DNA of 33,684 bases from the NCBI GenBank assembly GCA_938017685.1, contig CALIIL010000067.1, forward strand, positions 1 to 33,684, given 5' to 3'. How positions within the stretch are numbered: the first letter of the stretch is position 1; each line of letters opens with the position of its first letter. The translations under genes and the position numbers were made by a program. Positions 21,493 through 25,812 of this stretch are shown one piece after another. This DNA comes from an uncultured Chitinophagaceae bacterium. GTDB taxonomy: Bacteria; Bacteroidota; Bacteroidia; Chitinophagales; Chitinophagaceae. A model generated the notes under the pieces. It was not told the origin of the DNA. It ran no database searches and saw nothing but the letters and a program-made list of their open reading frames with translations.

Positions 21493-23130
21493 ATGAGCCA
21501 TAAACAGCTAAAACTAGTATTTATACCTATTCTATTCATTTATTTGATCAATTTGTTCATTGCTCCCTTTGAAATAGATGCTGCTCAATATGCCGAAATG
21601 AGTAGAGAAATGCTCAAAAGTGATCATTGGCTGCACCTTTTTGATGGCGGATATGATTACTTAGACAAGCCCCCCTTTCTATTCTGGATATCTGCATTAA
21701 GCATGAAAATATTTGGGGTGAGTAATTTTGCTTACAAACTCCCTTCTACCCTTTTTGCCATTGGCTCTATTTATTGTTTGTATCGTTTTTCGAAATTATG
21801 GTATAATGAGAAAACGAGTTTGTACGCCGCTTTGATATTAGCCTGTTCTCAAGCCGTTTTTTTAATCATCAATGATATTCGTACCGATACTATTTTAATG
21901 AGTTTTGTTATTGCTTCATTTTGGCAAATGAGTAGCTGGTTGCAACAAAAAAATAATTGGGGTTGGCTTTGGGCTGCTGTATGTATTGGTGGTGGCATGA
22001 TTACCAAAGGGCCTGTTGCGCTTATTGTATTTGGTATGGGTATGCTACCTCATTTTATTATTAAGAAACAATGGAACAATTTATTTCGGTGGCAATACTT
22101 AGGAATGCTAGTTGTCGTTGGGATTATCTTATTGCCGATGTCTTATGGTCTTTATACACAGTTTGATCTGCATCCAGAAAAATTAGTCAATCATGCGCAA
22201 GGCGTTTCAGGACTAAACTTTTATTATTGGACACAAAGCTTTGGACGCATTACCGGAGAAAGTGTTTGGGATAATAATGCGCCATTCTATTTTCTCTATA
22301 TGAACTTGCTTTGGGGACTACTCCCCTTCACATTATTTTTTATAGCAGCAACGGTCAAAGGTTTTTTACGCCTAAAAGAAAACAACATACAAACAGAATG
22401 GATGAGCACAGCAGCCGTTGTACTCGCCTATCTTTCTTTGGGCATAAGCAAGTTTCAGCTACCGCATTACATCTATGTTATACTGCCATTTATATGCCTC
22501 TTAGTTGCTCGCTACATAAGAAGTATTGAAGACTACTTTACACATAAGTTTCGTATAATGCGCTTTATACATATTGGGTTGTTTTATGTTATTGCAGCTT
22601 GCTTTACAATAGGTTTATTGTATGTATTTCCCAACGCAAACCTCTTACAAAAAGCCGTTGTAATTCTTAGCAGTCTAGGCATAGTAGCATGTATTCAACT
22701 AAATAATAAAAAGAAGTTGCAAGTAGTGCCTATGCTAGTATTAATAGCCGTTTGTTATAACCTTTCGCTCTCCTTCTTCTTTTATCCTAATTTATTAAGC
22801 TATCAACAAGAAGATAAAATAGCCCAAGTGCTTCATGAGCAACATTTAGCTACTAAAGAAATAGTCACTTTTAAATATCCTGTTGGCAGAGCATTAGATT
22901 TTAACCTAAGGAAAGATGTTCAAAAATTTAAAACATTAGACAGTATTAGACATGGCCAAATAGTTATTACCGATAGCATAGGAAAGGCCAAACTTGCCCA
23001 AAATAATATGGATGCAAAAATAATTTATAGTGGTTTAAACTACCCTATTGCTTTAATACAGATAGGCTTTTTATCTCCAACCAGCAGAGCATCTTATTGC
23101 TCTAAGTATTATTTACTTGAAATGAATTAA
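21493..23130 (+). CDS. GT39-like (ArnT/PMT-type) membrane glycosyltransferase
   Basis: The product of about 545 residues has some dozen hydrophobic segments. Its first outer loop reads PFEIDAAQYAEMSREMLKSD then YLDKPPFLFW, the signature of ArnT/PMT glycosyltransferases, whose Asp in EIDAA-like motifs serves the polyprenyl-phosphate sugar donor. Such enzymes move a sugar from a lipid carrier onto lipid A, protein or glycan on the outer side of the inner membrane. An ATG at 21460 is in frame, but the intervening residues (MCYFKAFLRLS) add nothing typical, so 21493 is preferred. It converges on the GT87-like gene with a four-base overlap of ends. Confidence 0.85.
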   Translation: MSHKQLKLVFIPILFIYLINLFIAPFEIDAAQYAEMSREMLKSDHWLHLFDGGYDYLDKPPFLFWISALSMKIFGVSNFAYKLPSTLFAIGSIYCLYRFSKLWYNEKTSLYAALILACSQAVFLIINDIRTDTILMSFVIASFWQMSSWLQQKNNWGWLWAAVCIGGGMITKGPVALIVFGMGMLPHFIIKKQWNNLFRWQYLGMLVVVGIILLPMSYGLYTQFDLHPEKLVNHAQGVSGLNFYYWTQSFGRITGESVWDNNAPFYFLYMNLLWGLLPFTLFFIAATVKGFLRLKENNIQTEWMSTAAVVLAYLSLGISKFQLPHYIYVILPFICLLVARYIRSIEDYFTHKFRIMRFIHIGLFYVIAACFTIGLLYVFPNANLLQKAVVILSSLGIVACIQLNNKKKLQVVPMLVLIAVCYNLSLSFFFYPNLLSYQQEDKIAQVLHEQHLATKEIVTFKYPVGRALDFNLRKDVQKFKTLDSIRHGQIVITDSIGKAKLAQNNMDAKIIYSGLNYPIALIQIGFLSPTSRASYCSKYYLLEMN

Positions 23131-24395
23131 TCGACTACTTTTTCATCAGTAAGAGAATACAAATATTGAGCTACCAATAATACACTCAACACAATTAAAC
23201 TAAAATAGTAATAACGGTAAGACAAAGGGCTAAAACTAAAGAATAGCAAAGTGGTCAAGTATAAAAAAGCAATACTGTTTTTCTCAAATTTATAGTTGAT
23301 ACTGCGTGCCGAAAATATTCCTAAGAAGCAAGTAATTAGCATCACCGCAGCTTGGCATGTTCTAATAATATAGCCTAATTGCTCCGGCGCCATTTCATTA
23401 AAAAACGTTCTAAAGTAAATTGCAAAGTGAATGCCGTAGGAGTAAGTCCAGCCCATAGGATGATCACCACTTGGTGTAAGCTCACCTATTGCACAGCCAT
23501 TATGATAGTCCAAACCCGTTTTAAGAATAGTAGGATCAGCTATTAAAAATGGAACATATAATACCAATACGGCTAATACAACAGCGCCAAAAGCCATCAT
23601 AGATTTTCTCCAGCCAAAAGCTTTAAAGGAATAAATAAATAATACGGGCAACCAAAACACAAAGGTATATCGTGACAGAATACACAGAATAACCCCAACT
23701 ACTATCCATGAAATATTTTTCTTAATCAAAGCAGCTCCAAGTAATAAGTAGTAACCTCCTATCAAGTATTCTGGAGAGACCGCAATATCATCCTTCAAGT
23801 AAATAATATGCAACCACAAAACAAAGGCAGGCAGCACAGCAATAATGATATTATAGACTAGCGGCAAGCTCTTTTTTAATAAAAGTGCCATATAAATAGC
23901 ACTGCATATAATGTAAATAATAATAGCCGACCAGCGTGTATCAATGCCCGTTTCTAAAGACAAGCCCATTGGCAGCCAATGCAAAGGCATGTATACCGGA
24001 AAGGGCGCATGATGATAAATAGTTACTTTAGAATAAGGAAAAACACCATCAGCCCAGCGTGTATAAAGCGTCTCTAATTGCCCTATAACATCCGAGTTAG
24101 GCGTGGGCAGCGGGAAATGCACAAAGATCTTCCTTAACTCTTCATAGGAGGACAAGAGGCACATTATACCTATAAAAAAAGCAAGTACTAATTGATTTTT
24201 AGTACTTGCTTTTTGAAAGTTTATTTTAATTCTTTTAGTAAAGAAAAAAATATGAAACAGAGAATATGAAACTAAGACAAATATTATTGGATTATATAAG
24301 TAGGTCAATTGCCTAGGTCCTTCGATATAAAGAAAGGATTGCAAACCTATAATAGCCAATAAAAAAAATAAGGTCTTATTCTCTTTACTCCACAT
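23127..24395 (-). CDS. GT87-like (DUF2029) membrane glycosyltransferase
   Basis: The product of about 422 residues has ten or so membrane segments. Loop sequences such as NSDVIGQLETLYTRWADGVF and VYMPLHWLPMGLSL match the DUF2029/GT87 polyprenyl-phosphate-dependent mannosyltransferase type in style; substrate unknown. An in-frame ATG at 24461 would overlap lpd by 56 bases, so the ATG at 24395 (MWSKENKTLFFLL), ten bases after the lpd stop, is the better start. Transcription probably comes from lpd. A perfect 15-bp terminator-shaped hairpin lies inside its reading frame (24174-24214). Confidence 0.72.
   Translation of the reverse strand: MWSKENKTLFFLLAIIGLQSFLYIEGPRQLTYLYNPIIFVLVSYSLFHIFFFTKRIKINFQKASTKNQLVLAFFIGIMCLLSSYEELRKIFVHFPLPTPNSDVIGQLETLYTRWADGVFPYSKVTIYHHAPFPVYMPLHWLPMGLSLETGIDTRWSAIIIYIICSAIYMALLLKKSLPLVYNIIIAVLPAFVLWLHIIYLKDDIAVSPEYLIGGYYLLLGAALIKKNISWIVVGVILCILSRYTFVFWLPVLFIYSFKAFGWRKSMMAFGAVVLAVLVLYVPFLIADPTILKTGLDYHNGCAIGELTPSGDHPMGWTYSYGIHFAIYFRTFFNEMAPEQLGYIIRTCQAAVMLITCFLGIFSARSINYKFEKNSIAFLYLTTLLFFSFSPLSYRYYYFSLIVLSVLLVAQYLYSLTDEKVVD
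24174..24214 (-). other. Terminator-shaped hairpin inside the GT87-like coding sequence
   Basis: On the minus (coding) strand AAAAAGCAAGTACTA pairs perfectly with TAGTACTTGCTTTTT around a 9-base loop and is followed by two more T, giving a seven-T run. It encodes QKASTKNQLVLAFF and lies about 60 codons after the chosen start. The geometry is that of an intrinsic terminator in the direction of transcription. Confidence 0.6.
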
Positions 24396-24405
24396 GAAGT
24401 ATTGA

Positions 24406-25812
24406 TTAAATATCAACCGCTTCGCCATAAGCTGCAGCAGTTGCTTCTTTAACACCTTCACTCATTGTAGGGTGAGGATGCACAGAGTTTAATACTTCTT
24501 GGTATGTTGTTTCTAAGGTTCTTCCTAATACCGTTTCTGCAATCATATCAGTAACACCATTTCCAATCATGTGCGTTCCTAACCACTCTCCGTACTTAGC
24601 ATCATATATTACTTTTACAAAACCAGTTGTATCTCCTGATGCAGCAGCTTTACCACTGGCAATAAACGGGAACTTACCAACTTTCAATTCGTAACCTGCT
24701 TCCTTCGCTTGCTTCTCAGTATAGCCTACTGAAGCAATTTCAGGATGGCAATAAGTACAACCTGGAATATTTCCGTAATCGATTGGCGTAGGCTTATGCT
24801 CTGATTTCTTTTCCATATAAGCAATGTACTCAGCACATAAGATAGCTTCTTTACTCGCTACGTGAGCCAATGCTTGTGTAGGTAATATATCACCAATGGC
24901 ATAAACACCAGGAATATTTGTTTGGCAATACTCATCTGTAAGTACGCGTCCTTTTTCCATTTTTACGCCTACTGTTTCTAATCCAATATTTTCTAAATTA
25001 GCAACAACTCCTACCGCACTCAATACAACATCAGCTTCTAAAATTTCTTCACCCTTTGCCGTTTTAACTGTTGCCTTTACTCCATCTCCACTAATATCCA
25101 CGCTTTCTACACTACTCTCAGTCATCACTTTAATTCCGCGCTTACGGAACTGCTTGCTTAACTCGCGAGAAATATCTTCATCTTCTATAGGAACTATACG
25201 TGGCAAAAATTCTACAATAGTAACTTCTGTTCCTACGCTATTATAAAAATCAGCAAACTCTACTCCAATAGCACCACTACCCACAACAATCATTTTCTTT
25301 GGCATGCTTGGCAAGGTCATTGCTTCACGGTAACCAATTACTTTTTGACCATCAATAGGCAAGCTTGGCAATTCGCGTGCGCGACCACCTGTCGCGATGA
25401 TAATATGTTTAGCATCATACATTGTTGCTTTTCCTTCAGCATCCGTTACCTCAACTTGACCTTTGGCTTTAATCTTACCATAACCCATGATAACATCAAT
25501 CTTGTTCTTTTTCATTAAGAATTGAACACCTTTACTCATGTTACCCGCTACGCCACGACTACGCTTAACCATACCGCTAAAATCAGCTTTCGGGTTTTCT
25601 ACCATTACGCCGTAATCAGCTGCATGCTTGGCATATTCAAATACTTGGGCACTTTTTAATAAAGCCTTAGTAGGTATACAACCCCAATTTAAGCATACAC
25701 CGCCTAAACTTTCCTTCTCAATAACTGCCGTTTTAAATCCTAGTTGAGAAGCTCTAATAGCAGCTACATATCCTCCAGGTCCACTCCCGATTACTATTAC
25801 ATCGTAATTCAT
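24406..25812 (-). CDS. lpd: Dihydrolipoyl dehydrogenase (E3)
   Basis: The 468-residue flavoprotein reoxidises dihydrolipoamide in the pyruvate and 2-oxoglutarate dehydrogenase complexes. FAD-binding GSGPGGY is at 9-15, the redox disulfide GGVCLNWGCIPTK has Cys40 and Cys45, an NAD-binding GSGAIGVEF segment lies near 178, and the C-terminal HPHPTMSE holds catalytic His447 and Glu452. Full length. The E1 and E2 genes are not adjacent. Downstream, ten bases after the stop, comes an unrelated glycosyltransferase gene. A promoter box lies at 25841-25848. Confidence 0.97.
   Translation of the reverse strand: MNYDVIVIGSGPGGYVAAIRASQLGFKTAVIEKESLGGVCLNWGCIPTKALLKSAQVFEYAKHAADYGVMVENPKADFSGMVKRSRGVAGNMSKGVQFLMKKNKIDVIMGYGKIKAKGQVEVTDAEGKATMYDAKHIIIATGGRARELPSLPIDGQKVIGYREAMTLPSMPKKMIVVGSGAIGVEFADFYNSVGTEVTIVEFLPRIVPIEDEDISRELSKQFRKRGIKVMTESSVESVDISGDGVKATVKTAKGEEILEADVVLSAVGVVANLENIGLETVGVKMEKGRVLTDEYCQTNIPGVYAIGDILPTQALAHVASKEAILCAEYIAYMEKKSEHKPTPIDYGNIPGCTYCHPEIASVGYTEKQAKEAGYELKVGKFPFIASGKAAASGDTTGFVKVIYDAKYGEWLGTHMIGNGVTDMIAETVLGRTLETTYQEVLNSVHPHPTMSEGVKEATAAAYGEAVDI

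Follow-up and report, generated by a model that had tools for sequence, protein, structure and literature searches.

The window analysed here, a 33,684-nucleotide stretch of DNA from an uncultured Chitinophagaceae bacterium, contains a hairpin with the form of an intrinsic terminator, nested in the coding sequence of a multi-pass membrane protein whose gene lies directly after lpd (Table 1). On balance, this hairpin is probably the terminator of lpd, built by substitutions in place within a variable loop encoded by the following gene, whose protein would then be made only by read-through. We infer that transcription terminates at the hairpin; the arrangement of the sequence around it, its rarity within genes and the fate of the lpd 3' end in related genomes are the evidence considered below.

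Table 1 Features around the nested hairpin (positions of the window)
Feature	Position	Strand	Remarks
Multi-pass membrane protein gene	23127..24395	-	422 aa; no Pfam match; holds the hairpin
Seven-T tract	24174..24180	-	at and past the end of the 3' arm
Hairpin	24176..24214	-	5' arm 24214-24199, loop 24198-24192, 3' arm 24191-24176
Spacer from lpd stop to next ATG	24396..24405	-	10 nt; no terminator within, unlike the congeners
lpd, dihydrolipoyl dehydrogenase	24406..25812	-	TIGR01350, 568.9 bits

The two arms are complementary at 16 of 16 nucleotides and enclose a loop of 7 nt, and five of the seven T of the tract are themselves base-paired to the A run at the front. A preliminary description of this DNA had placed a perfect hairpin at 24174-24214 in the direction of transcription. 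The structure is real and lies there, with perfect arms and seven T, but the 15-bp stem and 9-base loop given for it leave out the innermost A-U pair and become 16 bp and 7 nt. The RNA fold predicted for a 71-nt stretch containing the hairpin has an energy of -19.9 kcal/mol (z = -5.96) that none of 200 shuffles equals, and the hairpin alone reaches -18.0 kcal/mol. Two hallmarks of intrinsic terminators, a stable stem-loop and a T tract directly 3' of the stem, are thus present. Only four of the 16 pairs are G-C, a point against a terminator of lpd, although intergenic terminators with three or four G-C pairs also exist in this genome. The structure could instead serve mainly as a stabiliser of an RNA 3' end, as a processing block or as the end of an ORF-internal small RNA, since 3' ends inside ORFs are known to yield small RNAs in E. 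coli (PMC7815308). Nevertheless, no Rfam match was found within the window and the T tract suits termination, so that such roles appear very doubtful. On the opposite strand, no terminator-like perfect stem was found in 22901-24400, hence the hairpin could also stop antisense transcription. This possibility is not favoured, as the plus-strand T run is only five nucleotides long and lies wholly inside the stem. The membrane-protein gene converges with a plus-strand PMT_2 gene ending at about 23130, and no other perfect-stem terminator-like site was seen around the ends of this pair in the same interval.

The hairpin occupies codons 61-74 of the membrane-protein gene (counted from the ATG at 24395), in sense orientation, as had been proposed when it was put some 60 codons into the gene. 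It begins 181 nt downstream of the A of this start codon and 191 nt downstream of the lpd stop codon. The protein had been labelled a GT87-like glycosyltransferase, a label that the sequence searches do not bear out: neither Pfam (E up to 10) nor NCBIfam (E up to 1) yielded a match, and a PDB profile search returned only an unrelated cytochrome (E = 1.3). A structure model of the protein alone has a mean pLDDT of 43.9. Homologues were matched in 76 of 394 genomes of the family, the best full-length identity being 36%; a pattern scan of genome contigs gave 29 pattern matches and no relative. The 14 aligned members share invariant S-D-V, W, D.RW and SR residues, which indicates a real protein family. 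The homologue stretch closest to our sequence (L050, G411:C1:1655124-1656140; 44% over 127 residues) is split into several frames in a single-contig genome, and represents either a decaying gene or sequencing errors.

The position of the hairpin inside the gene depends on the start codon. If the protein began downstream, in the region of the ATG at 24164-24162, the hairpin would be an ordinary intergenic terminator of lpd, and there is indeed an in-frame ATG shortly 3' of the T tract. Yet the N-terminal 88 residues match a profile of 13 homologues with 27.2 bits, far above the best of 500 shuffles (9.4 bits), so that translation most likely starts upstream of the hairpin, and the late ATG would cut the third hydrophobic segment. 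A misplaced start is consequently very improbable. Homologous coding sequence is found on both sides of the hairpin and the predicted translated region covers it. In the alignment, the hairpin sits in a variable segment that separates the second hydrophobic stretch from the third. The distance from an NP-like site to the SDV motif is 66 residues here and 64-71 residues in the 13 nearest full-length homologues; this normal length suggests that the hairpin was probably built by substitution rather than by insertion. A mobile palindrome was considered and rejected, since the hairpin is single-copy in the whole genome even when three mismatches are allowed and the length of the protein is unchanged. 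No comparable stem occurs in the first 450 nt of any of 28 homologues (the full-length ones being about 36% identical or less), the longest stem among them having 11 bp and belonging to a broken copy. This absence from the homologues weighs against a nested terminator of lpd; at so low an identity it counts neither for nor against the regulatory role proposed in the preliminary description.

The rarity of such structures within genes was evaluated on 60 stretches of the same genome together with the window (61 sequences, 814,043 bases), in which 695 ORFs were called mechanically, without a gene finder. Perfect stems of at least 12 bp with at least three G-C pairs and at least six T in eight were found in 49 intergenic places, at one ORF edge and only once inside an ORF in sense orientation, namely the nested hairpin (stems were counted per strand, so that symmetric terminators count twice). 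Even when the tail criterion was dropped, it remained the sole sense perfect stem of at least 12 bp within an ORF in the sample. Forty synonymous-codon shuffles of 693 ORFs produced 25 stems of at least 12 bp in total, two of them with T tails; one had 14 bp and none reached 15 bp. For the membrane-protein gene alone, 20,000 synonymous shuffles gave a single stem of at least 16 bp, and the probability of this stem given the peptide and the codon usage of the genome is about 4e-4. In 1.13 Mb of three other genomes of the family (G002, G024 and G006), one sense stem of at least 12 bp with a T tail was found within an ORF, a 14-bp stem in G006 whose 80-aa ORF is of doubtful reality. The hairpin could still be a silent coincidence, in which the peptide and AT-rich codons form a palindrome by accident and the RNA is kept unfolded by constant translation; predicted terminators are said to be numerous within ORFs, where suppression is to be expected (PMC4824070). 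Against this stand its uniqueness among the 695 ORFs, the single occurrence in 20,000 shuffles and the fact that it coincides with the absence of the normal lpd terminator, all of which make the coincidence improbable, in keeping with the earlier remark that coding sequence is seldom so symmetric by chance. The survey also brought to light a 69-bp perfect inverted repeat with a 4-nt loop and a smaller terminator hairpin inside (L100 8472-8613, at the end of G000:C36), which may be a fold-back assembly artefact. An identical 15-bp hairpin lies in opposite orientation near the ends of contigs C14 and C35 (L078 25-60 and L099 160-195), which may therefore overlap or share a repeat.

The nested hairpin resembles the intergenic Rho-independent terminators of this genome in its A run, its stem length (14-16 bp in these terminators), its short loop, its T tail and its energy, and differs from them in lying entirely within coding sequence. 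Its energy is better than that of 61% of the 74 terminators sampled from intergenic regions or ORF edges, whose median is -16.6 kcal/mol. Within the window it is the first terminator-like hairpin 3' of lpd, nothing being found earlier, and the short spacer without a hairpin is consistent with the initial proposal that the membrane-protein gene is read through from lpd. A match to lpd was found in 58 of 59 genomes, and the best 30 places were taken as loci; one of these belongs to the window itself and another lacks a stop within reach, leaving 28 for comparison. In 23 of the 28 relatives, a terminator-like hairpin (dG of -11 kcal/mol or better) begins about 15-133 nt past the lpd stop. These include both congeners, whose lpd is 92% and 86% identical to ours; they lack the membrane-protein gene, and in each the hairpin begins 23 to 27 nt beyond the lpd stop. 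The remaining five (L016, L021, L026, L033 and L036) have no such strong hairpin after lpd, which indicates that lpd need not have one and speaks against the hairpin being its terminator.

These observations would fit a simple course of events. The membrane-protein gene stands directly after lpd, where relatives have the lpd terminator, and its variable loop contains a terminator-grade hairpin that leaves the length of the protein unchanged; the origin of the hairpin would lie in substitutions made in place. Most polymerases leaving lpd would then stop at about 24174, which would give lpd its own 3' end and hold the membrane protein at the level of read-through. More tentatively, a ribosome following the polymerase closely over the first 60 codons might cover the 5' arm and raise read-through, in which case the output of the gene may depend on translation. 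In messages that end there, the second ORF would have no stop codon, and the ribosomes translating it would be expected to need rescue, a need stated for a test construct (PMC4824070). One difficulty for this account is that a translating ribosome could mask the hairpin fully and render it silent.

The preliminary description went further and proposed an intragenic attenuator gated by the ribosome. In this reading, close translation would cover the 5' arm and let the polymerase read on, whereas lagging or failing translation would let it stop, so that the output senses translation. In attenuation of the pyrBI type the role of antiterminator falls to the ribosome, and the nested hairpin would likewise require a ribosome close behind the polymerase over the terminator; here, unlike there, there is no leader peptide, the terminator is within a structural gene and no sensing signal is identified. 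Of the 50 perfect-stem terminators in the genome under study, 47 begin 16 nt or more past the stop codon, and in the congener G002 all 23 do, as would be expected if ribosomes mask hairpins. This spacing is a hint, short of proof, of coupling between transcription and translation in this genus, by which translating the second gene could relieve termination. The pattern is weaker elsewhere in the family (19 of 21 in G006, 12 of 19 in G024). For E. coli, a distance of about 100-200 nt is given for the first ribosome to reach the polymerase (PMC4824070), a range that includes the 181 nt available here, and the extent to which terminators within ORFs are repressed is said to depend on coupling (PMC4824070). 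Coupled ribosomes there have been shown to repress terminators near stop codons or in ORFs, except in about the first 100 nt (PMC4824070; EF-P study PMC5021804). B. subtilis is reported to have terminators near its stop codons and only weak coupling (PMC7858274, PMC12207403). Purine-rich genes have been linked to runaway transcription (PMC13323073), but as a sign of it the purine content is ambiguous here, with a median of 0.544 over the ORFs of the sample and 0.445 in the membrane-protein gene. Moreover, no alternative pairing that would exclude the terminator emerges above background for either arm: upstream pairing of the 5' arm does not exceed that of shuffles, so that no antiterminator was found, and the pairing of the 3' arm with the end of lpd is equalled by 11% of random coding stretches. 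The attenuator, though plausible, appears rather unlikely, and a constitutive terminator of lpd accounts for the same facts in fewer steps.

A search for Rho (TIGR00767, PF07497) gave no match in this draft genome (G000, 93.6% complete); Rho is present in both congeners and in 36 of the 39 genomes searched. In G002, rho is located one gene from cinA; in the genome studied here other genes stand beside cinA, with no contig end there, and rho may have been lost or relocated, or may fall in a gap. It could be imagined that, in a lineage that may lack Rho, a nested intrinsic terminator does the work of Rho by silencing a newly arrived untranslated gene, the foreign gene by lpd being expressed only if ribosomes follow at once, a scenario that we regard as highly improbable.

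ORF-internal 3' ends and intrinsic terminators have been reported in E. coli (PMC7815308), so that terminators within ORFs are already known and the nested hairpin is a well-marked further case. As in the E. coli examples (PMC7815308; PMC4824070), the hairpin lies in an ORF and its effect is expected to depend on translation; it differs from them in that its 3' end would likely belong to the upstream gene and in being known from the genome sequence alone. At 16 bp, its stem greatly exceeds the 6 bp predicted at ispU in E. coli. Excerpts of transcriptome papers on Bacteroides and Flavobacterium (PMC7366714, PMC9723704) contain no statement on terminators inside genes. If the hairpin is the terminator of lpd, it provides a clean natural case in which the 3' end signal of one gene is encoded within the protein sequence of another, and this placement makes transcription-translation coupling in Bacteroidota-like bacteria testable at a single site. 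It also suggests how the transcript end of a highly used gene can be preserved when another gene lands behind it.
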